Below, piece after piece: positions 14,339 through 45,650 of a stretch of 62,973 nucleotides of DNA; within the stretch, counting starts at the first letter, position 1, and each line of letters begins with the position of its first letter. Under the pieces are notes generated by a model. The model was not told the DNA's origin, made no database searches, and worked only from the letters and a program-made list of their open reading frames with translations. This stretch comes from a virus, in the IMG/VR virus record IMGVR_UViG_3300036761_000576, positions 1-62,973 of that record, one strand, 5' to 3'. Position numbers and translations under genes: made by a program.

Positions 14339-14487
14339 CAGAGTCTCCTTCGGTCGTTGCGACGGTAGATGACCTCGAGGAACAGCGCCAACGCGGCGAC
14401 AACGATCCCGACCACGCCGAACACCAGAACCGCCTCGGGGTCGAGCAACAGTGCCAGGACCGTGATGCCGACCAGGAAGTAGCTCAT
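14338..14487 (-). CDS. small two-helix membrane protein
   Basis: Forty-nine residues (MSYFLVGITVLALLLDPEA) with two hydrophobic helices, FLVGITVLALLL and VLVFGVVGIVVAALALFLEVIY, and a very basic tail (RRNDRRRL). It is translationally coupled to the giant gene by ATGA. It may be a membrane partner for DNA entry or a holin-like protein. The position right behind the ejection protein favours the former, but this is inference. Confidence 0.6.
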   Translation of the reverse strand: MSYFLVGITVLALLLDPEAVLVFGVVGIVVAALALFLEVIYRRNDRRRL

Positions 14488-23400: not shown

Positions 23401-26400
23401 ACAGACTCGCCCTTGCCGATGGTTTCGATCTCGGTGGCTGGATCGGCCAGCGCCGGTTCGATCGCCTCTACCTGCTTTGCGATTTCCGCGGCTTCGGCGG
23501 CCGGCGGCGTTTCGGCAGTCGGAAACTCGGCCTGCCCCGCAGCGGCGCCAACGTCGCGCTGGCGGCTCGATCCGGTGAGTTGGAACCCGCCGACGCCCTC
23601 GTCAATCGCATCCTTGGCGGCGGCGGCTTGCTTGGCGTCCTCGGCCGCTTTGGCCTTCTTCTCCGCCGCTACGATTTCGGCGTTGGTTTGGGCGGTAAGG
23701 GTGAACGTTTCCGGCGCAACCGTAGCATGGCCCGATGCTGGTGCAGGGCTCGCCTCGCTGCCTTGAGCAATGACTTTGGCGTGGGCATCTTCGTGATCCT
23801 TCAAGAATGCGCGGATCGCGGCCAGAAATCCAGCCTCGTCGTCCGCGTGCTGTATGGACAGGCGCTCTACGGCGCCGTCATCAATCGCCGCAGCCTGGGC
23901 CACCAGATCGACAGCCGCGAGATCGACCGGGCTGTGCGGGTCAAGGCCCGCGTCGCCAAAGAGCGCCTCCGGCGTGGCAATGCCCGCGAATTCGTCACCG
24001 GCGGCATGTGCTTGCGCTGCGGCCTCTTGCTCGAGGCCGATTTCCTCCCGGCGCTCCGCCAACTGCTCGAATTGAACTTCTTCGCCGCGGACCCCTCTGG
24101 CATAGGTTTTGTTGCCCGCCAGCTCGCGCTGAATCAGATCGACAAGGCGATTGGAGGCTCCGGTAACCTGGTCGGCGTCGTTCTCCGTCAGGTAGTTGTA
24201 GCCCTCCAGGACGCCGGCCATGTCGTCAAGGCCAAGACCGCCCTTTCTGAACAACGATCCAACAAACGGCAGGCGCGGATTGACGTTCTTCTCGCCGACG
24301 ACGTCTGCTCGGTACTCGTTGCTCAAGCCGCCGAGTTTGATGATCGCCGGGATAAGCGAATCGGTCTTCGGATACAGGATTTTCCGGTTCCGCCCCCTCT
24401 TGGCGAGTTCGGCGTCGCGGTCCAGTTGCTTTTCGGAACGCGGTTTGGACGCCTCCTGTTCCGCCAGCATTGCGTGCTGCTGATCCACGCGCATCCTGTC
24501 GCCGAGTCGCTCGGTGATGGCCGTCAGGGTGCCGTTCGGAAGACCTGACGCGCGGAGCTTTTTCACCAACTCGTCGACCGTGATCTTTCCGTTCAAGGCG
24601 TCGACAACGTTCATCTTCGCCTTGACCTCGGCGGCGGATTCGCCCTTCAACGGGGCGGCGTACTCGTAGCGAGTGGCCGGCTTTGTTTTCTCTCGCCCGT
24701 CCTCGGCCATCGTCTGACCAGCGGGCGGTGCAGCGTTGCCGGCCGCAACCCGCGCGCGTTCGGCCTCGCGCGGATCGCCTTCGGGCGGCACCTTGCTCGC
24801 GCGGCCCTGGGGATTGCTGTAGTCGAACTCCAACTCCGTGACGTGAACACGGATAACCGTCGGCTCTCCCTTGCGGACATAGATCGAACGCAACTCGACG
24901 TCAGCCTTTGCGGTCTCGGGGTCGATCGCTACGATCGTTCCCTTGAGACCGGAGTGATAGACACTGTGGCCTTCGGTGTCGTTGCTGATCGCGCCCATTG
25001 GGACGGTCCAATCTCCGACCTTCCATTCGGCAAGCGCATCAGCAACACGCTTCGCCTGTGCGGCAACGGACTTGTCGCGCGCCGCTACGATCGCCTTCTG
25101 CTCATCGGGCGGCAGCTTGCTCCACAGCACACCAGCCTTCTTTTTCGAGTCGACGCCAAGCAAGAAGTTGGTACGCGCATTCGATGACAGGCCAGCCCAC
25201 CACTGATCGAGCGCCTCACCCTGCGATTCGGCGGGTTTGTCAACCTTGGTGCCGTCTTCCTTGTCCCACACGCGCCCGTTGTACGAGATCCGTGCGACCA
25301 ACTTCCCGGTTTCGTCGGTGACGCGCACACCGTTGCCGACCTGAGATACGCCAGCGCCGCTCTTGTCGCGGAACTCCGTCCACTTCGCTTGCGCGTCGGC
25401 CACCGACTCGACCGGGTGCCGTTTGCTCCCCCATTCTGCATAGAGTTGCGTGCGCGGCGCCAACGCCGTTTTCGCAACCTCACCCTTCAACGGGATCTCC
25501 GTCACCTTCTCGTTCTGGTCGGAGAATTCCAGCGTCGAAATCTTGAACTCGCGGCCTTCGAGGGGATTCTTGCCGCCGGCCGTGAGCGTGCCGCGCTTGC
25601 CGTACCCCAGCGTGATGTGCGGCCGGTATTCGGGGAAGGTGTCCGTGTGCGGCAGGGACGCGATCTTGGCGTTCAGGCGATGAAGGTCCGGGCTGTCGAC
25701 CCGCGCCACCAGCACGTCGTAGTCCTTGCCCTCGGGCTGGAATACCTCGAGCTTGCCGATCGTGCCGGTGATCGGAGGCTCGCTCTCAATGAGCTTGCGG
25801 ACGGCCTCGGGGGCGTTTTCGTGCAGGCCGTACTTCACCGTGACGTGCGGGCGGTCCTCGAGCCCCTTCTCGGGATGGCGATCGGCCGGCGCGATCATGG
25901 CCTTCGCGGCGGTCTTGACGTCCTTGGCCAACCCGGACGGCAGCGCGACCTGGGTGGAGTTGAACTCCTGCGGGCCAGCCCCGGGCACCTCTTTCGCTGC
26001 CTCGACCTTGGCCGGAGCCTCACGCTTCTCGAGCTGGATCACCCCCTCGGGCTTGGTCGCCAGGGGCCGCCATTGCAGCGCGTGCGTGCCGTCGTCGGCA
26101 ACGAGGGAATGGGTCGCGGCATCGAAGGTGCCGGCGCCGAATGCCTTTTGGCGGGTCTTGGGAAGGGAGTCGCGCTCGGCGCGCAGGCGTGCTTCGAGAT
26201 CGGTGGTAACGGCAGGGATCTGTGCCTCTGGCGCGGCGGGAGCGGCAGGGATCTGTGCTTGCTCAGTACCCTTCGGCCGGATCACGAACGCCTTGTCGCC
26301 GATCTCCGCAACCGCGTGCGTATCGCCGAGCCCTTGAAGCTCCATGCGGTTGCCGGCCGCCTTCCGCGCCGCGAACGGCAGGCCATCGTTGGGGCGCCCG

Positions 26401-28529
26401 ATGTCGCCGGGCAGCATCCCCGGCGCAGGCGGCGCTACTTCACCGGCGGGAGCAACCGTTGGTATCGCTTCGGCTTGGCCGGGGACTGCGGGGCCCGTGG
26501 CGGCAGGCTCATTCCCTTGCTGGCCCGGTTCCACTCGTCCACTGATACTCCCTGGCTCGCCAGTTTGTCCCGGTTCGCGTTGAAGTACCTCTCCTGTGCC
26601 ATGCTCTTGTAGGGCATTGGGTATCTCCTCGGTTGGTGTCTTCGGCCGCAGTACCCAACCTGTGCCGACCTGTGCAATATCGTGGCTGTCCTCGAGGCCC
26701 AAGCGCTTGATCGCGTTGAGGGCCGGGAGCTTCGCCAAGAACGGGTTGCCGTCGGCTCGGCCAACGTCTCCCGTCTGCATTCCGGCCGGCAATGGCGGCC
26801 CTGTGGGCGCCGCTTCCGGCGCGGCGGGCGTGACGGCAGGCGGAGCGCCCGGTGGCGTCTCCTGCGGCCCGGCAGCGGGCGGCGGTTGCGTTCCTGGAGC
26901 CTGCGGCGGCTTGAATTCGGTCTGCTTTCCACCTTCGTGACCACGAGACACCGCTCCGCCAGCGAGGCCCATACCGAGCCCGGCCGCAGCGCCGCCGAAT
27001 GTCTGGTGCCATACGTCGCGCATCGTGTCGATGCTGGGATCGGCCGCTTGTGCGGATACATTCTCGCCAAGTTGCTGCAACGGATTTTGGACAAGCTCCT
27101 CGCCGGTTTCCACTCCTCCGGTCTTGAGCATCCGCACGAACCGATTTCCGGCCACCTTGCCGCGGAACGCGCTGAATATCATCGCGTCGCCCAGTCCGGC
27201 GAAGGGCATCGTGCCAATGAAGGCGAGCACCGCCGCCTGCGTTCCTTGATTCTTGGCCAAGGCTGCTTTTGCGGCTTCACGATCGCCGCCGTAGCCGTCG
27301 ACGAGTTCCCGGAATGCTGCCGACTTCTCATACAGCATTCCGGTATCCATCTTCTCGATCTCTTCGCGCACGCTACGGTAACTTTGGCCCGCAGCGAAGG
27401 CCCCCTCTCCACCGCCGCCGCCTAACCAGTTCCCGATCTTGGCGGCAGTTTCAACGGAGGGCGTAGCTGCCACAATCTCTTTCGCCGCCGCAGCCTGCGC
27501 CGCTTCTACGGTCAATCCCTTGGCGACGCCAGCACGTGTTGCTTGGGCCAGCACTCCGCTACGCGCCGCTCCCTCAAGCGCAGTCTTCGCCGCCATCTTC
27601 GCCGCGATGGACCCAGCCGCCATCGACGGCACCATGCCAAGCACCATTTCCGGCGCCGAACCGAGGATGCCAATCGCCCACGATTTCGGGTCGGCTGCTG
27701 CGGCACCCTCTTCCCACGGGAACAGGTCCCATCGTTTTTCTGCGGCCGCAGCCCACTCTGGCGTGCGTGCAGCTATCTGCTTCTCTCGCATTGCGTCAAG
27801 CGACGGCATCCCCATCACTTCGCCGAGCTTTTCGATGCCCCATACCACGTTGTCGCCCAACGTCATTTGAAGCAGCGAACGCACGTCCTCGCCGGGGGCG
27901 ATCCAGCCCCCATAGAACTCGTTGCCGATCTTGGAGAAGATGCTGGGTTCCGCTTTCGGCGTTGCGGCCGTCCAGTCGATCGGCAAAGGCGCACCGAGCC
28001 GCGACTCCCAATCCTTCCCGAATTGCCCTGTCGCCGGCAACGCGCGACGCGGGACCAGAGGCTCTCCGGCGTCTGTCGTTGTCGTCGAGTTCGGCGCGAG
28101 GACCCGGGCGGCGGGCGGTCCTGCCTCGCCCATCACCTTCCGCACATAGTCTGGCGTGCGCGTGATCCCGTCTGAGTTGTCGGGAATCCCATTGCCGCCA
28201 GCGTTGAGATCTGCCTGAACGTTGCCAGGGCCGGTATGAAATGCGGCGATACCAACGGGCAATGATCCGAATTTGTTGATCTGCTTCGAGAGATACCCAA
28301 CGCCCATCGAGATATTGCTGCGCCAGTCGAGCGGATCCCCGCCGCCCATTTCCTCGACCGTGGCTGGCATCAACTGCATCATCCCCTTGGCGTTCTTGTA
28401 TGAAACGGCCAAAGGATCACCACGCGATTCGACGCCGATCAATTTCTCGGCGATTGGGCGCGGGACGTTGGGAAATTGCGAAAGGACGTCGGTCAGGTGC
28501 GCGCTGAGTTCTTCCGGGGTCGGCATCAA
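14484..28529 (-). CDS. giant polyvalent ejection-type protein (4681 aa, PLxRFG)
   Basis: One uninterrupted frame, the largest gene here. Visible parts in order: lytic transglycosylase (about 10-110; KLIGVESRGDP, KGMMQLMPAT); hydrophobic patches near 300 and 520; Pro-rich linkers (530-750); 2H phosphoesterase pair HVTVKYG (893) and HITLGYG (973); LPD-type region FGFRAGEFGNW with metalloprotease-like AHEWFHALD (1986); RadC/JAB motif LLHNHPSG with SD downstream (2451); phosphoribosyltransferase loop VLADDVSTMGGT (2818); second HELFHD (3013); NYRELLITLP and FIEEIQSDW block (3350-3430); PLMRFGQ (4046); C-terminal membrane helix (about 4415). Such proteins are packaged and injected with DNA to cut the wall and disarm defences. 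Enzyme activities are inferred from motifs. Confidence 0.92.
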   Translation of the reverse strand: MMPTPEELSAHLTDVLSQFPNVPRPIAEKLIGVESRGDPLAVSYKNAKGMMQLMPATVEEMGGGDPLDWRSNISMGVGYLSKQINKFGSLPVGIAAFHTGPGNVQADLNAGGNGIPDNSDGITRTPDYVRKVMGEAGPPAARVLAPNSTTTTDAGEPLVPRRALPATGQFGKDWESRLGAPLPIDWTAATPKAEPSIFSKIGNEFYGGWIAPGEDVRSLLQMTLGDNVVWGIEKLGEVMGMPSLDAMREKQIAARTPEWAAAAEKRWDLFPWEEGAAAADPKSWAIGILGSAPEMVLGMVPSMAAGSIAAKMAAKTALEGAARSGVLAQATRAGVAKGLTVEAAQAAAAKEIVAATPSVETAAKIGNWLGGGGGEGAFAAGQSYRSVREEIEKMDTGMLYEKSAAFRELVDGYGGDREAAKAALAKNQGTQAAVLAFIGTMPFAGLGDAMIFSAFRGKVAGNRFVRMLKTGGVETGEELVQNPLQQLGENVSAQAADPSIDTMRDVWHQTFGGAAAGLGMGLAGGAVSRGHEGGKQTEFKPPQAPGTQPPPAAGPQETPPGAPPAVTPAAPEAAPTGPPLPAGMQTGDVGRADGNPFLAKLPALNAIKRLGLEDSHDIAQVGTGWVLRPKTPTEEIPNALQEHGTGEVLQREPGQTGEPGSISGRVEPGQQGNEPAATGPAVPGQAEAIPTVAPAGEVAPPAPGMLPGDIGRPNDGLPFAARKAAGNRMELQGLGDTHAVAEIGDKAFVIRPKGTEQAQIPAAPAAPEAQIPAVTTDLEARLRAERDSLPKTRQKAFGAGTFDAATHSLVADDGTHALQWRPLATKPEGVIQLEKREAPAKVEAAKEVPGAGPQEFNSTQVALPSGLAKDVKTAAKAMIAPADRHPEKGLEDRPHVTVKYGLHENAPEAVRKLIESEPPITGTIGKLEVFQPEGKDYDVLVARVDSPDLHRLNAKIASLPHTDTFPEYRPHITLGYGKRGTLTAGGKNPLEGREFKISTLEFSDQNEKVTEIPLKGEVAKTALAPRTQLYAEWGSKRHPVESVADAQAKWTEFRDKSGAGVSQVGNGVRVTDETGKLVARISYNGRVWDKEDGTKVDKPAESQGEALDQWWAGLSSNARTNFLLGVDSKKKAGVLWSKLPPDEQKAIVAARDKSVAAQAKRVADALAEWKVGDWTVPMGAISNDTEGHSVYHSGLKGTIVAIDPETAKADVELRSIYVRKGEPTVIRVHVTELEFDYSNPQGRASKVPPEGDPREAERARVAAGNAAPPAGQTMAEDGREKTKPATRYEYAAPLKGESAAEVKAKMNVVDALNGKITVDELVKKLRASGLPNGTLTAITERLGDRMRVDQQHAMLAEQEASKPRSEKQLDRDAELAKRGRNRKILYPKTDSLIPAIIKLGGLSNEYRADVVGEKNVNPRLPFVGSLFRKGGLGLDDMAGVLEGYNYLTENDADQVTGASNRLVDLIQRELAGNKTYARGVRGEEVQFEQLAERREEIGLEQEAAAQAHAAGDEFAGIATPEALFGDAGLDPHSPVDLAAVDLVAQAAAIDDGAVERLSIQHADDEAGFLAAIRAFLKDHEDAHAKVIAQGSEASPAPASGHATVAPETFTLTAQTNAEIVAAEKKAKAAEDAKQAAAAKDAIDEGVGGFQLTGSSRQRDVGAAAGQAEFPTAETPPAAEAAEIAKQVEAIEPALADPATEIETIGKGESVADFGPKIGGARKDTATPLGKRGTISKVVDERPAWARPYIAMEQLERSSSYSFPMRNAEQPKKTGKWELMRANRGASGAVSRASRTVFDTEEDALAAIPLAEVARNHRVYSYKDKDGEQKQGIFRQIGERKRALVKGGFATEEDAMKAMASDPVPIIEHKFQFPEKPWLDRIERVGEPKRKGDVTTKMFQEAFGFRAGEFGNWNMGSDGQAALNHAYDALHDLADTIGVPAKALSLNGELAVAFGARGTGGVGAAAAHYGPDKVVINLTKIRGAGSLAHEWFHALDDYLTKSADNAKAQRARTVLKEGRPYATYGFPYNTDARPELIAAFKHLVDTMTAKKEGVAVDENVATRRLTTAQESLKYNLDGLRSEIAKKAEYGQKKGAATPAQLKAWDALAERAMAGDNGADVQVPPPKGAGRFSFGYGSSEVVRVLNAIYKEVRGRSFDRADPDSQGRRLHWHIKSVKDMQDRVASAQKGTIEERRTGTEYLNEANKIDGLRASDYWSTRHEMGARAFESYIFDQLAAAQKKSDYLVHAVENKYYAAFDMKPYPEGAERAAIDAAFDDLFNVIQTKETDKGIALYEPNGAYNKTGEPTPPDPFSDPYEPLKTRPGTTDAQKDDGRAALAAAERRIFGPAGSGRHGAALLGSRISKDFRADGGVTLVGQQVRGPQDLATIAQVLRDPRFETFRVFYVDSADRVIGEGTYSSRLPGAVHLPADLDQHVAADKLRFGKGQFGHVRYWLLHNHPSGLAEASGSDRFLTDMLKQNVPGFVGHVIIDHNEFHQILADGTDSTVPAPELNSKALAGSNVEAPHPMLGRPITGPSQMVAIAKELQTRDGYVTVIATGGPRGLIGLVTEIPVPSLQPKTRPESIRMLAAVRRAMLQAGTGGYLFAVTPTSAMSPEYALLRKSGVFGDVIAAGDENSVAARGDMAPGKVPVSRIDKTGRKSPDLPSWYAKEQEATYSPDQGEAMFSRATRREGLPAETKQIASSRNTNALKGHADYIAAKAGDPEAAERLVRDLVNEDDLDEARKAFGGGALFAWPHAEEASGLNALPAALAARYAEATDGALAPVIVQTNHAFHTGAKAMERLIARPVFDGEVVSGARYVLADDVSTMGGTLAELGDHIRAGGGEVIGTVVLTDASRTPTMQASKQQINQVEQRYGDAVREIFNIEPAALTAAEAGYILSFRDADSLRNRAGAAERERDARLHAKGIQPAEKVEPPGSAQSRANEARPSGGLSASGVHSQVDSFTSEAWPERVVVQHVADLPFKASPDTRGASHGGKLYFVADNLFSPVDVEHVAFHELFHDQLKREPALRGEFDRLVAINPNLRKAAAAWRAANGRDGRSEFAHRFQSYEEALADLGQRGANLTGLGRFLAAVQTWLRKMGLTRMADAMEGFTDAEALAYVNDVLRGSQATAERPAGDRQAAASRKAPIWRSALAESVAAKAPFSKAGVIDSPQLARWLEARTKDGTFKKDELEWSGLTDFLKLERRVTRDQVGAFLDENGTRLDERVLGEKKAESDGDTVESLTARLAHLGYTPDIDYESRLQGLTRDRDDMYFVFDEGTREWTNADPDSEPDEGDTVETLHSNVAAPATRLGELRDNESNYSGPRPGEPKHAQWQQPGGSNYRELLITLPRRETTTGDVAKRLFGTSILENLSDSQRDRLVEEMRNTPNGNRDFRQGHYSDVADNVLVHVRMNERTDAEGKPVLFIEEIQSDWAQKGRKEGFNDNDKRAKLAAERAAIQARSGGDMRNAGAADLARMDEITPEYDRLGAAPPPAPFVQKTEAWVALALKRAIRYASENGMDAVAWTTGDQQNKRYSLSSQVDGIKWDPVIGTTKQDVKITTVGHGSIRFTVDGGKIVDHHTNVHAERLVGKGLDEVLGKEVAEKIAAKHKGELSGEGLDIGGSGMRGFYDRIIPSVANDILKKLGGERVRTFKGVVENGVQFQHYEGPIPTARDVHEKIHEKDHGATLERQLRSVVEAMGQGVPFRTAIQEHGSANLAELFGGKLVQTAKVGEQQGFDITPAMREKALAGMPMFSRAIPGLGPVTREGIQDRLAFLLNSSKTLNWWHKSVGTMYHIAETVPAFKPVFRLAQKYINDTNQFSMDAAQLAPDLLPTLKNIRDVLPNILRSKDKQAPSRADFDAVAKAIFDGTLEDKKVYSDEELAAKGLTAKQVDLYRQARAALDRSLDDLAASSAAQQVRGTPLSRSVIEAAKADPVGAPGIYDAFLRPIAEREQAGYRRAVDKRTAELKAFDKATAPLLKAAKGPGGRLTVEAARKEQRAELEARHDFAVKAWETTRDISAKMLSDVSKTFDRAKTLKAEGYAPLMRFGQYTVFVQDPETKESIFFGMYESQAEQRRMERRMKEEYPDAEVYTNIMSKEAYKLYGGISLDSLKLFAHAIGAEESAVFQQYLRLAVNNRSALKRLMHRQGTPGFEQDVTRVLATFVTSNARLASKNYHLGEMREAVNELGRGDVKDHAIKLLDYVQNPTEEASAIRGLLFVNYLGGNIASALVNMTQPVTQTLAYLSQFTGPAGAAKALTGAARAAAGGPINEPALRAALLQAEKEGITEPHEIHALYAESIRTLGGSLPARKFLRAWGSLFSLAEAWNRKITFIAAWRAAQDMTPEQFRKAGVTDAYAFAEKAVHDTQGVYSRANRPVWARSGVGATLFTFKQFSIAYVEFVKRLPPREQALAIAILIFAAGLQGLPFAEDLEDLVDTIGQAIGYNTNSKRWLHDLAPDFMMHGISGVTGFPVDIGRLGFGNMVPGTAILKRSEVDKTRDVNEAFGPIGGFVQGIGRAWDAAVAGDKRGVAVSMAPTAVQNAMKAIDMMQTGHYRDFKGRNVIETTGADAAAKAIGLQPQSVAVASRKARDIQQDIGLAKRVQGDIAGLMAEGRFENDPSKVERARADLVDWNEKNPDSRIRIDMAGVNQRVKAMRALREERIAKTAPKGMRPAVREALQ
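19680..19702 (-). other. terminator-like hairpin inside the giant gene
   Basis: AAGCCCGCC, 5-base loop, GGCGGGCTT: a perfect 9-bp GC-rich stem, followed on the minus strand by TTTCC. It has the same build as the real terminators at 7811, 55087 and 58634, but lies within codons for a low-complexity linker (EARPSGGLSAS) between the phosphoribosyltransferase and second HExxH modules. It may attenuate the transcript or be the relic of a former gene boundary. Confidence 0.6.
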
Positions 28530-33482: not shown

Positions 33483-35357
33483 CTACACAGTGGCCAACTC
33501 GGACATCGTGGAAGCTAGATACGCTTCGCGCACAACCTGATCGGCTCCTGACCCGAACCGCAAGCGCCACCGCCGCGCTTTGAATCCATTAGGCAGGCGG
33601 AAACTGTATGCCTGCGAATTCGCTGCGGACAAGCCGGTCGCAGGAAATATCATCGATAACTGAAACCGCAGTACTCCATCCCCGAAAACCTGCACCAGTA
33701 GCGGCGCTGACTGGATTGCTGGATCTCCGTACCCGACAATTTGCAGAGCCCCGAAGTTGACGGGTTGCGGTACGATCACGTCGCGCGTCGAATAGCCAAA
33801 CTGGACTCGAAACATGGTTTCGTCGCCAAAGCGCGCAATCGTCGAGCCCGTGATCCCGGAAGTCACTACGTACAGGCTATCGTCATGCGGCAAAATAAAA
33901 TCGCTCACTGTCGTTGCCGTTAGGATAAGTTCCGTCATCTGCGTGTCTGGATCAACGACATTGATGAGGAAGCCCGTGGCGCCGTTGCTGAAATAGCAGA
34001 TCAGATGCCCGTCGGAGTACGCCAGGCGCATGGCCGTGAAAAACGCCTTATAGCGAAGATCCCACTCCTCGCGCGTGAACAGCGCGCGCCCAAGAGGACG
34101 CGCCCTACCGCTTGCGATGAGCCAAAGACCATCGTGCGTCCCGTAGATCACGCCTGCCGGGCTTCGTACCACGGCTCGACTCGGGTTCGTGAATCCTCCG
34201 GCATTCGGTGCGGTTGCCAGACCAGCCTCGACGTTCTGCAATTTCTCGTAGGTGGCGTTCGAGGGATGCGACCCCGTGATGACGTAGGGCTCGCGATCGG
34301 TGATGACAAGCAGCGCGTTTTCGTCGACGGTCAGGGCCAGGATCTTGAACGGTATCGCGATGATGTACTTCTGTGGCCAAGCCGACGGCCTGAACGGCTC
34401 GCAAAAGTAGATCAGGTTGTTGTCAAAAGCCACCATCATGCCGTTGCGCCACGCTGTAAGCCCCATCAACTTGCGTGCCGGAGGCGGATCCCAGTCGAGA
34501 GAGGGCAACGTCTCCAGAAGGTCCGTCGCCCTAGCGTTGTCGGTGAATTTCCATCCAAACAAGTCGGTGTACGGGTTCGGAGTCGAGCGCACCGGAAACG
34601 GGAAGTACGCAGTGATGAGCGATATTTTATTCGGCTCCACGCTGGCCGTGTTTCCGGTCACGGTCGCGGTTTCTATCGTTTTCGGCACAACCTGGTACAC
34701 CGCTTGACCGCTTGCGGTCACATTCGATCGATAGACGTTAAAGTATGCGATTGGGACATAGAACGCTGATGCCAGCGGCGCCGGAGACTTGAATTTCCCG
34801 GACAACTCGACGCCGTGCATGAAGGAAACATCAATCGACGCCGGAGGGCAAGGGATCGACTCTTCGCCGAAGTCGTTGACCTGCGTTAAAAGGTAGGTGC
34901 GGGTCTCCACGGTCCCGTAGTTCATCTTGAACCCGAGCCACGTAGTCAGGTAGTCAATCCCGGCCACTGGGGGCGCCGTCTTCCATAGAGTGAAGAGGCC
35001 GTTATAGGGCCCGGCATCCGTAAGGTTGCCTTGGAAATTGAACATTTCGATCCACATGCCACCGGGCACGGAATCAGTGACGTTCTTCCCTGTTTGGCGC
35101 GAGTTGGTCGAGTAACAGGTGAATATCTGACGGTTCTCGTGATCTGGATCGTAGCCTTCTACTTTCACGCAGCGCTTGAGTTCGTTCGACGAATACGTCA
35201 CGCCACCGGCAGATTGCAGAATCGCGCCCGGAGTCGTATCTGTGCCATCGAGCTGGTGAATGTTGGTAACGTCGAGATAGACCAGCCCGTTGTAGCGGAT
35301 CGACGTCGCGTTGATGATCTCGAAACTTTTTCCGGGCGGGATCAGGAGCGTGCTCAT
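33483..35357 (-). CDS. tail nozzle/stabilisation protein, C-terminal part
   Basis: A 624-residue, beta-rich protein. LPSLDWDPPPARKLMGLTAWRNGMMVAFDNNLIYFCEPFRPSAWP (about residues 270-330) is the beta-propeller core of podovirus tail nozzle proteins (P22 gp10/T7 gp12-like). NVYRSN resembles an Fn3-like strand. The start overlaps the stop of the smaller upstream protein, which carries the usual N-terminal region of this family, so the nozzle is split into two polypeptides here. Confidence 0.75.
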   Translation of the reverse strand: MSTLLIPPGKSFEIINATSIRYNGLVYLDVTNIHQLDGTDTTPGAILQSAGGVTYSSNELKRCVKVEGYDPDHENRQIFTCYSTNSRQTGKNVTDSVPGGMWIEMFNFQGNLTDAGPYNGLFTLWKTAPPVAGIDYLTTWLGFKMNYGTVETRTYLLTQVNDFGEESIPCPPASIDVSFMHGVELSGKFKSPAPLASAFYVPIAYFNVYRSNVTASGQAVYQVVPKTIETATVTGNTASVEPNKISLITAYFPFPVRSTPNPYTDLFGWKFTDNARATDLLETLPSLDWDPPPARKLMGLTAWRNGMMVAFDNNLIYFCEPFRPSAWPQKYIIAIPFKILALTVDENALLVITDREPYVITGSHPSNATYEKLQNVEAGLATAPNAGGFTNPSRAVVRSPAGVIYGTHDGLWLIASGRARPLGRALFTREEWDLRYKAFFTAMRLAYSDGHLICYFSNGATGFLINVVDPDTQMTELILTATTVSDFILPHDDSLYVVTSGITGSTIARFGDETMFRVQFGYSTRDVIVPQPVNFGALQIVGYGDPAIQSAPLLVQVFGDGVLRFQLSMIFPATGLSAANSQAYSFRLPNGFKARRWRLRFGSGADQVVREAYLASTMSELATV

Positions 35358-36421
35358 GCCGAGTCTCCGCCGTCGCCAGTGCCGTCGCTGTCACCAACGT
35401 CACCACCCGCCGGATCGGTAGAGCCACCTCCGCCTACTGCGCTGCCACCGTCTGACGCGCCGCTTCCTTGGCCGCCACCTGGGTCTGGCGGCAGGGGCGT
35501 CGGATCTGCCACGGGCGTCGAACCATAGGTGAGGATGATATCGGCGGCCGCGCTGTTGTTGACGATGATAACCGTGCGCGCGATTGGTACAGTGTCCAGA
35601 TCAGGCGGGATGAAGAAGTAGTATTTGTACGGCCGCTGAGTCGCGCCAAGCGAACTCAGCAAGTCTTGGATCTTATATTGCCGCAACGCATTGGGGTAGC
35701 CGACGTTGGTAACGAACACGTTATTGTGTACCCATGGCACATGCGGGATGTTGTCCGCAGGATTGGGCCGATTTGCGGTTTCGTTATTGCTGATGTCTAG
35801 CTGGGCGACGATCTGTCCGGTAGGGTTTTCAAGGAAATACATGACCCGGAGCGAAAGCCGCGGGATGCCTGGCCACTCTGGAAGATCGGACAGCGTGATC
35901 TCGAGTTTGTCGGTGTCGGCGACGCCTTGCACGCGTGGCGGCGGTACCCCAAGCACCCAGGAGTCTGGCCCCCCTGGCCCCGCTATCCCGACTGGCGGCG
36001 GATTGGAGTTTTCCGGCGGCTGGTAGTTGCCAAGAACGGCGGAAGTTCCGATGAGCTTAGTTGGCGGATTGACCGAGTCGTTGCGCCATGTACGCGCGAC
36101 CTTGATGATCGGCCCATCATCGAGTACCTGGGTGTAGAAGACTCGGTAGAACTTATCGTCGACTACCTGGCTTTTGACCGCGTAGGTGTCGTAGGCCCAA
36201 GCGAAATAGTCGACGCCGTCCTCGGTGTAGACGCTAGTAATCGCCCGGCCCTGAATGGCAGTGACTAGATTGCTGGCCAAAGTCTTGTTGCTGCGCAGCC
36301 CGCGCAGGTCGCCGTGCGCGAGATCGCAGTTAGTCGCGTCTTGCGAGGCCCCTTCTGGCAGCAGATGCGCCGGCAGACGTGGAATCTCGCCGCCAAAGGA
36401 TCGGAAAACGATTTTGCTCAT
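35354..36421 (-). CDS. tail nozzle protein, N-terminal part
   Basis: A 355-residue protein starting MSKIVFRSFGGEIPRLPAHLLPEGASQDATNCDLAHGDLRGLR. That is the typical opening of podovirus nozzle proteins (GEIPR.....LP..AQ.A.N..L..G.LR). The end is a low-complexity Gly/Asp/Ser/Pro tail (GGGQGSGASDGGSAVGGGG), unlike a folded domain. The tail is followed by a 4-bp overlap with 33483-35357. Confidence 0.7.
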   Translation of the reverse strand: MSKIVFRSFGGEIPRLPAHLLPEGASQDATNCDLAHGDLRGLRSNKTLASNLVTAIQGRAITSVYTEDGVDYFAWAYDTYAVKSQVVDDKFYRVFYTQVLDDGPIIKVARTWRNDSVNPPTKLIGTSAVLGNYQPPENSNPPPVGIAGPGGPDSWVLGVPPPRVQGVADTDKLEITLSDLPEWPGIPRLSLRVMYFLENPTGQIVAQLDISNNETANRPNPADNIPHVPWVHNNVFVTNVGYPNALRQYKIQDLLSSLGATQRPYKYYFFIPPDLDTVPIARTVIIVNNSAAADIILTYGSTPVADPTPLPPDPGGGQGSGASDGGSAVGGGGSTDPAGGDVGDSDGTGDGGDSA

Positions 36422-37158
36422 TATTTTATGATTAACCAGAAGTCGTCTGACAATCCGCGACTACTCACGTAGTCATAGGGCATAGTGCAATAACCATTGA
36501 GGCCCCAATGCTTGCCCCAGGAGTTGCGTACAGTCACCCTCTGAGTCGCGTTGTCGTAGCCAACGCACAGTGCCGCGTGACCGCCCAGCAATTTCTCTCC
36601 CTTGGTCGGCATTGGCACGACGCCGGTGCTGGCGACCTTGCTGGACTCGAAGGAGGCGTACACCGAAAAACCGAACACGACAGGAAGTTTGTTTGCCAGC
36701 GCCGCCTGCAAGTTGTCGAAACCGATGACGCGCTGATATTCCGTTATACGACGCAAACGCGCATCGGCGTAGGCGCGTTTCCCTGGCTCTTTGCGGTAAT
36801 CGACGATGCGGTACGGCCAGTACGCTTCGGAACAGACACCGAACTTGGCGCACACCTTCACGCCATCGCGTATTTGCGCCCCCGCGTCGTAGCCAACCGT
36901 GCCCTCGATCTTGCGTTCCTGCCAGTACACGAAGAGGCGAGAGAGATTGAGCTTCGCTCCGCCGTCTATCCCTTCCAGGTACTCGAGCGCGCCGACGATC
37001 GCATTCCCGGTACAGGATCCGAGATTGCCTTGGTCTTCAACGGGAGAGCAGTGCTGGCGCAGATCAACACTTTCTGGCAGCCGTTTCCCGTTTGCCTTGA
37101 AGACGTGATCGCGTAAGGCATCGGGTACGTCTGGACGCCAGGTGTAGCAGCGGGCCAT
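36421..37158 (-). CDS. papain-like (C1) cysteine protease
   Basis: About 245 residues from the ATG at 37158 (MARCYTWRPDVPDALRDHVF). VDLRQHCSPVEDQGNLGSCTGNAIVGALEYLE gives the oxyanion Gln and nucleophile Cys (QGNLGSC), GGHAALCVGYDN the catalytic His, and VRNSWGKHWGLNGY the Asn. No signal peptide and only a short propeptide. It is coupled with a small membrane protein and lies between lysis and tail genes. A virion-borne protease acting on the host surface or in assembly is possible, but the substrate is unknown. Confidence 0.88.
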   Translation of the reverse strand: MARCYTWRPDVPDALRDHVFKANGKRLPESVDLRQHCSPVEDQGNLGSCTGNAIVGALEYLEGIDGGAKLNLSRLFVYWQERKIEGTVGYDAGAQIRDGVKVCAKFGVCSEAYWPYRIVDYRKEPGKRAYADARLRRITEYQRVIGFDNLQAALANKLPVVFGFSVYASFESSKVASTGVVPMPTKGEKLLGGHAALCVGYDNATQRVTVRNSWGKHWGLNGYCTMPYDYVSSRGLSDDFWLIIK

Positions 37159-37301
37159 CAGCGGTGAAAGAACACGAAACCGAGGATGAGGCCACCCAGC
37201 ACTCCGGCCAATACCGCCGCCGCCTTGCGATGCGTGTTTCCCCACTCGAAGGCTGCGCTGGCGCCGTCCTTCAAGTGCTGTGCGAACTCGTATCTATTCA
37301 C
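37158..37301 (-). CDS. small membrane protein
   Basis: Forty-seven residues from a GTG at 37301, overlapping the previous TGA as GTGA. MNRYEFAQHLKDGASAAFEW is amphipathic, then one transmembrane helix (AAAVLAGVLGGLILGFVFFHR). It overlaps the protease start by one base. Candidate lysis accessory or virion membrane protein. Confidence 0.6.
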   Translation of the reverse strand: MNRYEFAQHLKDGASAAFEWGNTHRKAAAVLAGVLGGLILGFVFFHR

Positions 37302-39411: not shown

Positions 39412-40218
39412 TCAAGCCCTCGTCGCAACTACGCGCTGATGTTTGTCAATGGCCACGATCCGAGCGGAGAGCACATCGCCGGTAGCATCGATTGGGGTGG
39501 ACAGCCAGACCAATCCCGCCGTGGCCGAGGCCGCAGCGCCCGCGTTGATGGGAGTCAAGGTGCCGGCGAGGTAACCCACGGCTTGCGCTTTCGCTCGTCC
39601 GACCGCGCCAAGTTGAATTCCCGTCGTCAGCGCAGCAGCACCCACCGCATTGGCGGTTCCAAGCGCCACCGTGAAGCCGTTGTAGAGGCTCGCGGCCCCG
39701 ACGACCGTCACGGTGCCAAAGGCGTTGTAGAACCCGCCGTAGAGGCTCGCCAGGCCTATTGCCGAGGCCGTCGGTGCGATTACCAGAGGGATTTGCGTGA
39801 ACAGCGCCCCCATGCCGATCGCCTTGAAAAACGCGCCATCGGCCGCGATCTTGAGTGGGATCTGCACGGCCCCAAAGCCGATCGCCGAGACCGTGGGCGC
39901 CGCCGCCAGGTTGATGCCGGTGGTGATCGCGCCAGCACCGATGGCCGACGTAACCGCGTTGGCATTGAGGATCGAGAACGAGTTGTAGCCAATGCCAGAC
40001 GCCGTCCCCGCCGCCGCCAAATTGATCGCCGTCAACAATGACGGCGTGTTGGCAGTGGCACTCGCCGCGGGGACATTGCTGGCAAGGTAGATCGGGACGT
40101 AGAGGGGGTTGGCCCCGGCCGTAGCCGAGGCCGTTGCCACTGCAACGCAGCGAATCAGCGCCGTCAGTGCTGCGAACGGCGTCGCCGACGCCGTTCCCGC
40201 TCCGACCATGTCGGTCAT
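39412..40218 (-). CDS. repeat protein of ~20-residue beta-type units
   Basis: A 268-residue protein without charged surface runs, built from about eight imperfect repeats of 20-21 residues with the consensus T-x-x-A-I-G-x-G-A-L-x-x-x-I-x-L-A-A. Examples are TSAIGAGAITTGINLAAAP, SAIGFGAVQIPLKIAADG and SAIGLASLYGGFYNAFG. No known domain is recognised. A solenoid or stacked-strand structure is plausible. It lies between tail and lysis genes, so a virion or surface-interacting role is likely but unproven. Confidence 0.7.
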   Translation of the reverse strand: MTDMVGAGTASATPFAALTALIRCVAVATASATAGANPLYVPIYLASNVPAASATANTPSLLTAINLAAAGTASGIGYNSFSILNANAVTSAIGAGAITTGINLAAAPTVSAIGFGAVQIPLKIAADGAFFKAIGMGALFTQIPLVIAPTASAIGLASLYGGFYNAFGTVTVVGAASLYNGFTVALGTANAVGAAALTTGIQLGAVGRAKAQAVGYLAGTLTPINAGAAASATAGLVWLSTPIDATGDVLSARIVAIDKHQRVVATRA

Positions 40219-40733: not shown

Positions 40734-41063
40734 CTAGGCCAACACGTTGAGGTTGGCAGACCGAGCTACGGTCTGCACTCTGCCGCCAACGTGGTACAGC
40801 GTGATTCGTCCTTCGTAGCGCCCAACCGCGAGCGAGTCCAGGCCGCCGAACGGCCACACGAAACGAACATAGCCGCCGGTGAATGGGTTTTCCGGCGCAC
40901 CTGGCACCGTCAACAAGACCGTGATCGTGCCTGGCATTCGCACCAGCATCGCCGCGCTTGAGACATCGGTCAGGTCGATCGGCAGCGAAGTATCGCCGTC
41001 GACCAGGGCGAAGCGGAGATCGGGCAGCGTGTCGCCCTTCACCACGTCGATAATTGAACTCAT
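40734..41063 (-). CDS. BppU-N-like structural protein
   Basis: A 109-residue protein (MSSIIDVVKGDTLPDLRFALVDGDTSLPIDLTDVSSAAMLVRM). The first strands and the pattern of a short ligand-binding beta sandwich agree with the N-terminal domain of baseplate upper proteins (BppU/DUF2479-type). It is coupled to the last of the four paralogues by ATGA. After its stop, 40661-40733 has only an imperfect GCGCCGCTCATGCGGCGC palindrome. Confidence 0.65.
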   Translation of the reverse strand: MSSIIDVVKGDTLPDLRFALVDGDTSLPIDLTDVSSAAMLVRMPGTITVLLTVPGAPENPFTGGYVRFVWPFGGLDSLAVGRYEGRITLYHVGGRVQTVARSANLNVLA

Positions 41064-41671
41064 GCTTTGCTCCCTTGGCCAAAGACGGAGGTGCGGCGCT
41101 CGCGGGCCCTGGTGATGGCGTTCGCCGCCACCGCGGCATACGCCAGCCCTTGCTGCGGATCCGCCCAGATCGTTCCGCGCATCAGCAGCAGCCGAGCCTT
41201 GGCCCCAGAACACAGCGCGTCGTAGTAGTCGTTGAACAGGAAATCAGGCCCCTGCGTCGAGTCACGTGTCGGGCCCAGGATGACGGTGAGAATGAGTTGC
41301 GTCGTCACTGTCGGTTGCGGCAAAACGCAGAATTCTTCCGGCTGCATTTGCGTGACCGCCTCGGGTGTGCCGGCAAGACCCAACCGCCAGCCGTGGAACA
41401 GGCGATCGCACGTCTCTGGCGTGAGCACGCCCAGCTCTCTCCCCGCCACCTGAGCCTCGACGATCTGGTAGACACGCGTGCCAGCGTCGGCCTCGAGCGG
41501 ATAGGACACCAGCCCCGGGGTCAGGAAATAGGCCGGCTGGACCTCTTGCCAAATCTTGCTCTCGGCACAGAAGTCGATCGCCGTGTCGCGGATCGCCTGA
41601 ATAGCGATCGGCGGAGGACAGGCCGCAACCTCTGGTTGCACGCTCGGCAGAAATAGAGTCCAGTCTTTCAC
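41060..41671 (-). CDS. connector-like protein, paralogue 4 of 4
   Basis: A 203-residue protein (MKDWTLFLPSVQPEVAACPPPIAIQAIRDTAIDFCAESKIWQEV). It shares with the next three genes the N-terminal LPxVxPEVxxCPxxxAxxAIRDxAIxFCxxSxIWQE block, the central RLFHGWRLG-type segment and the ATRDSTQGPDFLFNDYYD C-terminal block. Members of this fold join head and tail in podoviruses, usually as one copy. It is the last and most divergent at the C-terminus. Confidence 0.75.
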   Translation of the reverse strand: MKDWTLFLPSVQPEVAACPPPIAIQAIRDTAIDFCAESKIWQEVQPAYFLTPGLVSYPLEADAGTRVYQIVEAQVAGRELGVLTPETCDRLFHGWRLGLAGTPEAVTQMQPEEFCVLPQPTVTTQLILTVILGPTRDSTQGPDFLFNDYYDALCSGAKARLLLMRGTIWADPQQGLAYAAVAANAITRARERRTSVFGQGSKA

Positions 41672-42291
41672 GCCGCGTTCCCCGCTCCACGCAGCTCGAA
41701 TACGTTCTGGTTGCGGTCTTTGGCATCACGTGCATCCTTGCCGAACATCATCGTGTAGACCGCCGCCTGTTGGGGATTCGACCACTTCGCACCGGCCATC
41801 AGCATCAGCGTGGCCTTTGCTTTGGCGCAGATCGTCTCGTAGTAGTCGGCGAACAAGAAGTCGGGTCCGTCGATCGAATCGCGCGTGGGCTGCAAGGCCA
41901 CGGTCAAGATCAGGGACGAACTGCTCGTTGGTTGCGGGATCACTGAGAACTTGTCCGTCTGCACCTGTGAGACAGCTTCGGGTCTCGCCACCACGCCGTT
42001 ACGCCAGCCGTAGAACAGCCGATCCGCCGTTTCCGGAGCGATGACCGCCAATTCCCGGCTGGAAATCTGCGCCTCGACAATCCGCGATACACGGGATCCG
42101 GCCGTCACCACGAAGGCGATCAATACCGGGGTCGAAGTGACGGTGTAGGGCGCTTGCGTCTCCTGCCAGATTTCCGACTCGGTGCAGAAGCGGATGACCG
42201 CGTCCCGAATCGCCCAGGTGGCGAGCGGCAGCGGGCACGCCTCGACCTCGGGCAGCACGTTGGGAAGGTAAGACGTCCACGGCGTTGTCAT
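41668..42291 (-). CDS. connector-like protein, paralogue 3 of 4
   Basis: A 207-residue protein (MTTPWTSYLPNVLPEVEACPLPLATWAIRDAVIRFCTESEIWQETQAPYTVTSTPV). The same blocks as its neighbours; RLFYGWRNG and LQPTRDSIDGPDFLFADYYE are nearly identical to paralogues 1 and 2. Overlaps its neighbours by 4 bp. Confidence 0.78.
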   Translation of the reverse strand: MTTPWTSYLPNVLPEVEACPLPLATWAIRDAVIRFCTESEIWQETQAPYTVTSTPVLIAFVVTAGSRVSRIVEAQISSRELAVIAPETADRLFYGWRNGVVARPEAVSQVQTDKFSVIPQPTSSSSLILTVALQPTRDSIDGPDFLFADYYETICAKAKATLMLMAGAKWSNPQQAAVYTMMFGKDARDAKDRNQNVFELRGAGNAA

Positions 42292-42920
42292 AGGAATTGC
42301 CCTCGCACTCGCGTCACTGCTCGTCCAAACGCGCGGTTTCTACGAGAGCGCGCCTGCACCAGTTGATCGGCCGCCATCTCGCCGTAGATCGCGGCCAGGC
42401 GCGGATTTGCCCACTCTGCTTCGTTCATCAGCATCAACCTGGACTTAGCACCCAGACAGATCGTTTCGTAGTAGTCGTCGAACAAGAAGTCCGGGCCATC
42501 AATGGCATCGCGCGTCGGCTGGAGAGCCACCATCAGCAGCAAGGACGTGGTGGCAACAGGTTGCGGCACGACACTGAATGCATCGGGCCCGATCTGCGTC
42601 ACCGCTTCGATCGTGCCGGTCCGTCCGGTTCTCCAATTCTGGTAGACCTCGTCGCAACGCTCTGGCGTCAGGATGTCGAGTTCCAGGCCATTGACCTGCG
42701 CCGCCATGATCTGTGCCACGCGCGACCCGGTCGCCGTTACAAACTCGTAACTGAGCGGGGTGGACGTAATCGTGTATGGCGCTTGCGTCTCCTGCCAGAT
42801 CTTCGTGTCGGCCAGGAATTTGATCGCCGTTTCCCGTACCGCCCATTGCGCCACCAACATCGGGCACGTTTCGACCTCGGGCAAGATGCCGGGCAGGAAA
42901 GACGTCCAGTTGGCTGCCAT
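42288..42920 (-). CDS. connector-like protein, paralogue 2 of 4
   Basis: About 210 residues from the ATG at 42920 (MAANWTSFLPGILPEVETCPMLVAQWAVRETAIKFLADTKIWQETQAPYTI); the ATG overlaps the preceding TAA by one base. The central motif differs (VYQNWRTG) from its partners (LFYGWRNG). The C-terminal tail (RSRRNRAFGRAVTRVRGQ) is more basic, so subunits could contact DNA or different partners. Confidence 0.78.
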   Translation of the reverse strand: MAANWTSFLPGILPEVETCPMLVAQWAVRETAIKFLADTKIWQETQAPYTITSTPLSYEFVTATGSRVAQIMAAQVNGLELDILTPERCDEVYQNWRTGRTGTIEAVTQIGPDAFSVVPQPVATTSLLLMVALQPTRDAIDGPDFLFDDYYETICLGAKSRLMLMNEAEWANPRLAAIYGEMAADQLVQARSRRNRAFGRAVTRVRGQFL

Positions 42921-43531
42921 TACGCCTTCTTGCGCACGAAGACCGACTTGTTGCGCTCCCGCGCTTCTTGCGAGCGGAGATGAGCCGTCGCCGCATAGAT
43001 CGCTCCCTGTTGGGGATTGGCCCATTCCGCTTCCGGCATGAGCATCAACCGCGACTTAGCACCCGCAGCTAGGTCTTCGTAGTAATCGTCGAACAGGAAG
43101 TCGGGCCCCTGGGTCGAATCGCGGGTGGGCTGCAAGGCCACGGTCAGAATGAGCGAGGCAGTTCCCGTCGGCCGTGGAACGACCGCAAATTTGGTCGTCT
43201 CGACCTGCGCCACGGTGTCGGGCGTGCCCGTGATCCCGTTGCGCCAACCGTAGAACAAGCGGTCAAGGCTCTCTGGCGTAAGCACGGTAATCTGACGTGC
43301 AGAAATTTGTGCCTGGACGATCTTCGCCACGCGAGACCCTGACGTCGTGACGAAATCGTAGGTGATCGGACTCGACGTCAGGTTGTAGGGCGTCTGCGTT
43401 TCCTGCCAGATCAGGCTGTCGACACAGAAGCGAATCGCGGTATCGCGCACGGCCCACAACGCCAGCACCAAGGGACAGGTGCTCACTTCCGGCAGCACAT
43501 CAGGCAGAAAGGTCGACCAGTCTTTGCTCAT
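42920..43531 (-). CDS. connector-like protein, paralogue 1 of 4
   Basis: A 203-residue protein (MSKDWSTFLPDVLPEVSTCPLVLALWAVRDTAIRFCVDSLIWQETQTPYNL). It is the first of the four tandem copies and directly follows the adaptor gene with a 4-bp overlap. The conserved LQPTRDSTQGPDFLFDDYYEDLA block near residue 150 identifies it with paralogues 2-4. Confidence 0.78.
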   Translation of the reverse strand: MSKDWSTFLPDVLPEVSTCPLVLALWAVRDTAIRFCVDSLIWQETQTPYNLTSSPITYDFVTTSGSRVAKIVQAQISARQITVLTPESLDRLFYGWRNGITGTPDTVAQVETTKFAVVPRPTGTASLILTVALQPTRDSTQGPDFLFDDYYEDLAAGAKSRLMLMPEAEWANPQQGAIYAATAHLRSQEARERNKSVFVRKKA

Positions 43532-44148
43532 TGCTTCACCATTTCACTGGCAGCACCAGTGCCGAGTGATGTTTCAAAAGCGGCGCGGAAGAGTGCGGCT
43601 CGCGGCGTCACCACAAACTCGTCGTCCTTCGATTCTGCGCGGAAGATCACGTAGGACTCCAAGGCGGGCTCGTACTGCTCGTTGAGGGGGATGGTGCTGT
43701 TGATGGTCAGAGCGGTGGTGTTCAACTCTGTCCACGAAGCGTCGAGGAGCTGGCCGGCGAGGCTCTTGGGATAGACGTAGAACCTGTTGTTCGGTTGCTT
43801 GCTGGCATCAGCCGGAAAGCGCATCCAGTGCACCGCGGGCCCGGCTGGGTCCGTGCGCCAGCCGGCCCGGTAGGCACGAAAGGTGTCGAAGTCGGCGTAA
43901 GTGATGGCGCCCCCGTTCTGGACCCCATAGACGTCGATCACGAACCAGCCATTCGGGACAATCGTTTGCTCGACGCCCGCCACACAGGTTATGGCACCCG
44001 TGACCGTGAACAGATCAGGCCGCAGCACGCAGGTCTCGCGCAGTCCATCTAGCGCATAGGCCAACAGTTCAGGATCGGGATAGCGAACCTTGTCGGTGTC
44101 GTTCAGCGTCGGCCGCAGCCGGTCGAGAACGGCCTGGAACGTAGCCAT
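43528..44148 (-). CDS. head-tail adaptor (DUF6682-like)
   Basis: A 206-residue protein (MATFQAVLDRLRPTLNDTDKVRYPDPELLAYALDGLRETCVLRPDLF). PDPELLAYALDGLRE, the central beta domain and the C-terminal PLNEQYEPALESYVIFRAESKDDEF correspond to podovirus adaptor proteins that bind under the portal. It is not closely similar to the four paralogues downstream. The position between capsid and connector genes supports the call. Confidence 0.8.
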   Translation of the reverse strand: MATFQAVLDRLRPTLNDTDKVRYPDPELLAYALDGLRETCVLRPDLFTVTGAITCVAGVEQTIVPNGWFVIDVYGVQNGGAITYADFDTFRAYRAGWRTDPAGPAVHWMRFPADASKQPNNRFYVYPKSLAGQLLDASWTELNTTALTINSTIPLNEQYEPALESYVIFRAESKDDEFVVTPRAALFRAAFETSLGTGAASEMVKQ

Positions 44149-44563: not shown

Positions 44564-45097
44564 TTAGGCGCCGTACCGCGCTGCCCGATAGAAGAGCTGG
44601 AAGTCGATGCGCCTGATCGTTGCCGGATTGGTCGCCGCGGACGCCACAATGCCCAAACCGATCGAGCGATCCACCAAGGTGGAGGGCGCGATTTGCTGGA
44701 ATGTAGCCAGTGCGCAGCGCGTGTAGGCAGGAGCCTGCAACAGCGTGCTGCCAGAGGCGATGCCTTCCACCCCCACTGTCGCTAACACTCGACCCGCATC
44801 GCCGACCGTTCCCGTCATCAGACCGAGCTTGATGGTGATCGTCGGCGTGCCGTTAGAGTCGAAATCATCATTGGAAAGGATGAAATCGACCGGCACGTGG
44901 TCAGCAGGAAGCACCGCCAACTCGATTAAGTCGTTGATCGCCGGATTGACGCCGGACGCAAAGATGATCGTCCCGGTAACCTCCACCAGATCGCCCGCTT
45001 CGGTGGAGATTACCGACGAATGCCGAAGGGTCTGAATGCCCGTCAGTGCGACGGCGGTCGTCGAGCCCGTTATTTCATTGGTTGCGTAGTACGCCAT
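44564..45097 (-). CDS. decoration-like head protein, tandem copy 2
   Basis: A 177-residue beta-rich protein nearly identical to 45126-45650 over its full length (MAYYATNEITGSTTAVALTGIQTLRHSSVISTEAGD). Differences cluster in short segments (DLVEV versus DVESV, SNGTPTITIK versus SAALITIK). Position behind the major capsid protein and small size suggest a capsid decoration or stabilisation protein; it could assemble as mixed trimers. Function is inferred. Confidence 0.72.
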   Translation of the reverse strand: MAYYATNEITGSTTAVALTGIQTLRHSSVISTEAGDLVEVTGTIIFASGVNPAINDLIELAVLPADHVPVDFILSNDDFDSNGTPTITIKLGLMTGTVGDAGRVLATVGVEGIASGSTLLQAPAYTRCALATFQQIAPSTLVDRSIGLGIVASAATNPATIRRIDFQLFYRAARYGA

Positions 45098-45125
45098 TCG
45101 TTTTCTCCTTCAAGCCGCTGACTGC

Positions 45126-45650
45126 TTAGGCGCCGTACCGCGCTGCCCGATAGAAGAGCTGGAAGTCCAAGCGCCTGATGGTCGCCGGATTGGTCGGTGC
45201 CGCCACGATTCCTATGCCGATCGAGCGATCCGCGGTAGTGCTCGGCGCGATTTGCTGGAAGGTCGCCAGTGCGCAGCGGGTGTAAGCCGCCGCCTGCAAC
45301 AGCGTAGAACCGGAGGCGATGCCTTCCACCCCGACCGTGCCGATCGCGCGCCCAGCGTCACCCACCGCGCCCGTCATCAGACCGAGCTTGATGGTGATGA
45401 GGGCGGCACTGTCGAAGTCGTCGTTCGACAAGATGAAGTCGAGCGGCACGTGGTCGGCCGGCAGCACGGCCAGTTCGATCACATCATTGATCGCCAGGTT
45501 GACGCCGGACGCGAAGATGATCGTCCCGGTCACGGACTCGACATCGCCCGCTTCCGTGGAAATCACCGAAGAATGCCGGAGCGCCTGAATGCCCGTGAGA
45601 GCGGCGGCAGCCGTGCTGCCCGTGATCTCGTTCGTTGCGTAGTACGCCAT
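45126..45650 (-). CDS. decoration-like head protein, tandem copy 1
   Basis: A 174-residue paralogue of the gene at 44564-45097, with a spacer of 28 bp between them. It is the first gene after the capsid terminator. Residues SVISTEAGDVESVTGTIIFASGVN and VGVEGIASGSTLLQAAAYTRCALATFQQIAPST are shared. High DNA similarity implies recent duplication or gene conversion. Confidence 0.72.
   Translation of the reverse strand: MAYYATNEITGSTAAAALTGIQALRHSSVISTEAGDVESVTGTIIFASGVNLAINDVIELAVLPADHVPLDFILSNDDFDSAALITIKLGLMTGAVGDAGRAIGTVGVEGIASGSTLLQAAAYTRCALATFQQIAPSTTADRSIGIGIVAAPTNPATIRRLDFQLFYRAARYGA

Follow-up and report, generated by a model that had tools for sequence, protein, structure and literature searches.

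Four tandem head-to-tail adaptor genes in a GP4/Bcep22-like podophage and a proposed stack of neck rings

How short-tailed phages alter the length and the contents of their tails is poorly known. In podophages of Gram-negative bacteria, one to three dodecameric adaptors are typical (PMC11784390). The adaptor of phage T7, gp11, is a monomer when isolated and forms rings only on the portal; its C-terminal helix embraces the portal stem, which is contacted by R196 (PMC6702177). In P22 the long C-terminal helix of gp4 lies on the portal (PMC6702177), and C-terminal embracing elements contact the portal clip domains in SU10 gp11 (PMC9509320) and in P-SCSP1u gp22 (PMC10575957). At the other end of the neck, the nozzle platform of SU10 meets the adaptor.

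In crAss001, five stacked dodecameric rings are built from four paralogous genes (PMC10172136). The crAss phages have three or four ring genes, and the authors of the crAss001 study noted that other podoviruses had been seen only with one ring of one protein (PMC10172136). Our literature search for duplicated adaptors in other podophages turned up a crAss review and nothing else. The system closest to the locus reported here is that of Ralstonia podophage GP4, whose gp81 (PDB 8jov) belongs to the same family, phrog_437, as gp54 of BcepIL02 and the other Lessievirus/Bcep22-like adaptors. Paralogous adaptor rings are already known from crAss phages; what is new here is the tandem array of their genes, in phages that otherwise carry one or two adaptor genes.

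The adaptor array and its neighbours

The window, which is the whole stretch of DNA analysed here, is a virus record of 62,973 bases. Four consecutive intact genes occupy 41060-43531 on the minus strand, between the capsid/phrog_399 genes and the tail genes, and they are transcribed in the direction from copy 1 to copy 4. The features that concern us are listed below, where "arm" means a basic-aromatic C-terminus of the adaptor family.

43528-44148, minus strand: second adaptor type, 206 residues, phrog_399; homologous to the second 12-copy adaptor in the GP4 complex (8jov chain 2, E 1e-15); lacks the arm
42920-43531, minus strand: adaptor copy 1, 203 residues, phrog_437; core intact, C-terminal arm lost, ends ...NKSVFVRKKA
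42288-42920, minus strand: adaptor copy 2, 210 residues from ATG, phrog_437; the sole copy with the C-terminal arm of the family (...GRAVTRVRGQFL)
42291-42326, minus strand: codons of the C-terminal arm of copy 2, GRAVTRVRGQFL, putatively portal-gripping
41668-42291, minus strand: adaptor copy 3, 207 residues, phrog_437; arm lost; an intact core fold is predicted (pLDDT 93)
41060-41671, minus strand: adaptor copy 4, 203 residues, GTG start, phrog_437; match to PF24175 SU10_adaptor (E 9e-7); arm lost
35354-36421, minus strand: N-terminal part of the nozzle, 355 residues; the first ~110 residues correspond to residues 1-103 of BcepIL02 gp63; C-terminus rich in Gly
33483-35357, minus strand: remainder of the nozzle, 624 residues; matches residues 126-580 of BcepIL02 gp63 and the GP4 nozzle (8jov chain A, 6 copies, E 1e-26)

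At all junctions, those with both flanking genes included, the stop codon of one gene overlaps the start codon of the next by 1-4 bases. The junction sequences are ATGA between the upstream gene and copy 1, TAATG between copies 1 and 2, ATGA between copies 2 and 3, GTGA between copies 3 and 4, and ATGA between copy 4 and the next gene. These overlaps at every junction make the array and its flanking genes look like one translationally coupled operon. Pairwise protein identity among the four copies is 50-58%, and 66 alignment columns are invariant in all four. Since tblastn between any two copies gave E values of ~1e-62 or lower, chance similarity of the copies is excluded. The same four genes recur on L009 (2 mismatches over 3.7 kb) and on L010 (3 mismatches over 4.75 kb), two short IMG/VR contigs that come from different samples than the window; an assembly or collapse artefact is ruled out by these two independent contigs. 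The original prediction of four tandem genes, each overlapping the next, was thus borne out. The shared sequence blocks that it quoted are present in the copies, and so are its two loop variants, LFYGWRNG in copies 1 and 3 and VYQNWRTG in copy 2; copy 4 has LFHGWRLG. The net charge of the four copies was also computed and was uninformative.

All four copies match phrog_437 over most of the protein (E 2e-30 to 3e-32), and the profile of the family matches GP4 gp81, which is present as 12 chains in 8jov (chain G; E 5e-59). The AF2 model of copy 2 had a pLDDT of 93, and its top structural match was again 8jov chain G (Foldseek E 9e-18; VIA Z 21.0, 203 residues). The next structural matches to this model were the adaptors of A4, KHP30, N4-like phages, SU10 and T7, followed by the crAss001 rings. 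The adaptor fold, a helix bundle with a beta-domain, was predicted for copies 2 and 3, which were the two copies modelled (pLDDT 93 each). We conclude that the products of the four genes are neck ring proteins, namely, head-to-tail adaptors of the GP4/SU10/T7 type. The description "connector-like", which had been given to these proteins earlier, is right and can be sharpened to homologues of the dodecameric head-to-tail adaptor gp81.

The phrog_399 gene lies directly upstream of copy 1, and its product is ~18% identical to copy 1. The phrog_399 and phrog_437 profiles match each other, and the two families thus represent one fold class. This distant fifth adaptor-type protein had escaped the original prediction, as had the presence of the arm in copy 2 alone. 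As for the nozzle, we take the six-chain protein of 8jov (chain A) to be the nozzle from its copy number and its place. The two nozzle genes of the window (33483-36421) overlap by 4 bases; the nozzle is a single gene in those relatives in which BLAST recognised it. Because the matches of phrog_437, phrog_399 and the nozzle all point to the GP4 complex, the region is the head-to-tail adaptor region of a GP4/Bcep22-like podophage.

Several other genes of this neighbourhood may be recorded here, all on the minus strand. A papain-family cysteine protease (36421-37245; PF00112, E 1e-18; phrog_16701) is encoded amid the tail gene cluster. Near the array, at 39412-40218, is the gene of a repetitive protein of 268 residues rich in Ala, Thr and Gly, with no family match. 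A giant open frame of 4681 codons (14484-28529) resembles the DarB-like 14-kb gene of BcepIL02 (gp70) in both size and position.

Copy number in relatives and age of the copies

The relatives recovered in our searches were Bcep22/Lessievirus-like and GP4-like phages, for which reason the window phage is not assigned to Crassvirales here. By tblastn, one phrog_437 place was found in each of 33-34 phage records. A capsid-anchored scan gave 80 IMG/VR loci, and the distinct loci among them were read through for adaptor counts. Of the latter, 28 had one phrog_437-type and one phrog_399 gene, and 22 had a single complete adaptor. Among the related loci (about 50) and the phage records (34), none had a second phrog_437-type gene. 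No further arrays turned up when copies 2 and 4 and the phrog_399 protein were used as scan queries, a scan of bacterial genome contigs for related prophages found none, and a scan of plasmids gave a single distant match.

These counts bear on two points of the original prediction. Its statement that podoviruses usually have one such gene holds for the phrog_437 type in every relative counted, but many relatives add a phrog_399 gene, and in crAss phages the ring genes number three or four (PMC10172136). It had also named extra copies that come and go among relatives as evidence against its reading; these were looked for, and no relative with an extra copy was seen.

Two variations among the relatives were observed in passing. 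The order of the phrog_399 and phrog_437 genes is swapped between one set of loci (L011, L014, L018 and others) and another (L005, L013 and others). In three relatives (L053:10078-11427, L051:4720-5823 and L028:9325-10368), the single adaptor has 348-450 residues and matches the profile in two parts, as if a large insertion interrupted the middle of the protein.

The nearest relative having the region, L013, has a capsid protein 76% identical to that of the window and one adaptor copy, with 38% identity. As suggested in the original prediction, a phylogeny of the four copies against relatives was made. In this tree of 30 sequences, the four copies form one clade with support of 100/99, and L013 is the sister of the clade. 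The import of the copies from different phages is ruled out by this single clade against 26 relatives. Taken together with the single-copy state of the relatives, the clade indicates that the amplification is, as judged from the tree and the gene counts, specific to this phage lineage. When the arm columns were removed, the branching order of the four copies was not resolved; a clade of copies 1, 3 and 4 is absent from the best tree and is not rejected (p-AU 0.175). Against the profile of the single-copy relatives, copy 2 scored best (191 bits versus 166-175 for the others), and it was still best with its arm removed. This score suggests that copy 2 is nearest to the single-copy state.

Pairwise dN was 0.34-0.46 and dS was 1.2-2.9; dS is near saturation, which makes the exact dN/dS ratio unreliable. 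Near-saturated dS with intact frames means that the amplification is old and has been maintained, and by these substitution estimates purifying selection acts on the copies. These values also bear on the explanation that the array is redundant, with copy 2 working and the others being dosage copies or passengers. This explanation can point to another tandem duplicate in the same genome, the decoration-like genes at 44564-45650 on the minus strand. However, all four adaptor genes are intact, their dN is well below their near-saturating synonymous divergence, the loss of the arm is specific while the core is kept, and in no relative examined do copies come and go. We therefore think that redundancy is highly improbable. 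As for the decoration-like genes themselves, their proteins are 86% identical (dN 0.11, dS 0.71), one such gene is present in the relatives compared, and by these distances this duplication is younger than the adaptor array.

The C-terminal arm and a proposed arrangement of the copies

In the single-copy relatives, the arm is of the type R-[VTS]-[RK]-x-x-[FYW]-F, and it is present in 22 of 22 complete phrog_437-like proteins of one-adaptor relatives. In the relatives with two adaptors, an arm of the type R-x-[RK]-x-x-F was found in 24 of the 26 complete phrog_437-type proteins (the other two end in variants) and in none of the 28 phrog_399 proteins. In the window array, the arm (RVRGQFL) is present in copy 2 only; copies 1, 3 and 4 end 5-9 residues past the last helix. 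These counts suggest a rule of one arm-bearing adaptor per phage, be it a one-adaptor or a two-adaptor phage, and the window array obeys it. Such a rule would be expected if the arm docks the adaptor on the portal.

The gp81 protein of GP4 ends RTRAQFF and was aligned, and hence is modelled, to residue 205/206 in the virion complex (8jov); the counterpart of this arm in copy 2 had low confidence in the AF2 monomer. By analogy with the C-termini of T7, P22, SU10 and P-SCSP1u, we infer that the arm grips the portal in GP4-like phages and would do so in the window phage. Copies 1, 3 and 4 belong to the phrog_437/gp81 type by homology but probably not in the portal-docking role. The suggestion in the original prediction that the copies are paralogues specialised for different contacts is thus supported, in that one copy kept the portal-type arm and three lost it.

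We think that the best explanation of the whole is that copy 2 forms the portal-docking ring and that copies 1, 3 and 4 form extra rings stacked with it, and we give this a probability of roughly 60%. According to this proposal, a single ancestral adaptor gene would have been duplicated in tandem in this lineage, and the copies would have split the work. Copy 2 would keep the ancestral role as a dodecameric ring under the portal, with its C-terminal arms wedged into the portal. Copies 1, 3 and 4 would have lost the arm and retained the core that forms rings; stacked below the ring of copy 2, they would make further 12-fold rings. The order would then be the portal, the copy 2 ring, the rings of copies 1, 3 and 4 in one order or another, the phrog_399 ring and the nozzle. 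Such a neck would be a barrel with about five rings, the tail would be longer, and this state would have been reached independently of crAss001. We infer that the virion contains the arm-less copies, that these make up rings of their own and that the rings follow this order. The adaptor of T7 needs the portal in order to form rings, so subunits without the arm plausibly depend on another ring as their template. We would also guess that the splitting of the nozzle gene is functional and linked to the extra rings.

The copies were also compared segment by segment. The loop between alpha1 and alpha2, which faces the nozzle in T7, is among the segments best conserved between the copies (71-79%). 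The last helix, alpha4, extends to the portal side and, if the tail is left aside, diverges more than any other long segment (33-42%). We count this combination of a conserved nozzle-facing loop and a divergent portal-side helix in favor of stacking. In contrast, the order of the genes, in which the arm-bearing copy is second, does not match the proposed order of the rings and counts against the model, as does the best tree without the arm columns, which lacks a clade of copies 1, 3 and 4.

The original prediction had also offered a mixed-subunit ring. In such a ring, as considered here, all four proteins would be in a single dodecamer, for example three of each, and would give varied docking sites on the neck for fibres or the capsid. 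Translationally coupled genes would yield the proteins in similar amounts, cores that are 50-58% identical could have compatible lateral contacts, and the adaptors of SU10 and T7 take alternating conformations to contact fibres or the nozzle (PMC9509320, PMC6702177). However, three of every four subunits would be without the arm kept by nearly all complete single-copy homologues, which would leave most portal clefts empty, and it is stacked paralogous rings that have been described, in crAss001 (PMC10172136). Stacked rings fit these facts better, and we regard a mixed ring as unlikely. We know of no mixed adaptor ring that has been described.

The conserved core bears as well on the explanation that the arm-less copies, instead of forming rings below the portal, are fibre-specific adaptors or build a different assembly of the neck or for fibre docking, which might surround the tail. 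It is true that adaptor beta-domains dock fibres in T7 and SU10 (PMC6702177, PMC9509320) and that the loop at 86-106 in copy 2 is unlike that of the other copies. But every copy has conserved the ring-forming helix bundle and the downward-facing loop, as would suit a ring of the same kind, and among the fibre genes, which are partly annotated, no matching expansion was identified. Such an assembly therefore seems quite doubtful to us.

Comparison with known adaptor systems

If the copies are stacked as proposed, tandem duplication would have led a podophage outside the crAss group, by convergence, to a barrel of about five rings. The arm-bearing ring would be the dock, the arm-less rings would be spacers, the nozzle would consist of two proteins, and the longer barrel may also hold ejection cargo. 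We put this wider reading forward tentatively, at somewhat less than an even chance. The five rings of crAss001 span 23 nm, or about 4.6 nm each, and by this measure the neck would be about 14 nm longer than that of two-ring relatives. A lineage with four tandem copies of this identity, one of them arm-bearing, would be an intermediate between phages with one or two rings and the diverged barrels of crAss phages. The suggested rule of one arm-bearing adaptor per virion may allow portal-docking rings to be separated from spacer rings by sequence alone, and the lengthening of a tail by gene duplication becomes testable by electron microscopy.

The adaptor of SU10, gp11, gives its name to the family SU10_adaptor (PF24175), which was matched by 14 of 27 members of the family studied here, copy 4 included; copies 1-3 fell under Pfam detection. 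SU10 has a single adaptor, and its C-terminal embracing loop grips the portal.

The window resembles GP4 in sequence (profile E 5e-59), in predicted fold (Z 21), in the adjoining phrog_399 adaptor and in the downstream homologue of the nozzle. The phrog_399 partner, called "virion associated protein" in GP4 and gp53 in BcepIL02, is present as 12 chains in GP4 and is arm-less, and it occurs once in the window as in the relatives. In contrast, gp81 has an arm and each Bcep22-like record searched has one phrog_437 gene, whereas the window has four in tandem, of which three are arm-less. The nozzle also differs, being encoded by one gene in BcepIL02 and by two in the window.

With the rings R1-R5 of crAss001 (gp43, gp40, gp35 and gp34), the window shares the adaptor fold class (Z ~8) and the presence of several paralogous ring genes in one genome, namely, four of phrog_437 and one of phrog_399; the multi-ring barrel of the window is our proposal from the genes. 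In crAss001 the C-terminus of the portal-end ring protein, gp43, is longer than those of gp34 and gp35, and a longer C-terminus at the portal end is likewise what we propose for copy 2. The crAss rings, however, are 15-31% identical and their genes are partly dispersed among other genes, whereas the copies of the window array are 50-58% identical, strictly tandem and found in one lineage among Bcep22/GP4-like phages.
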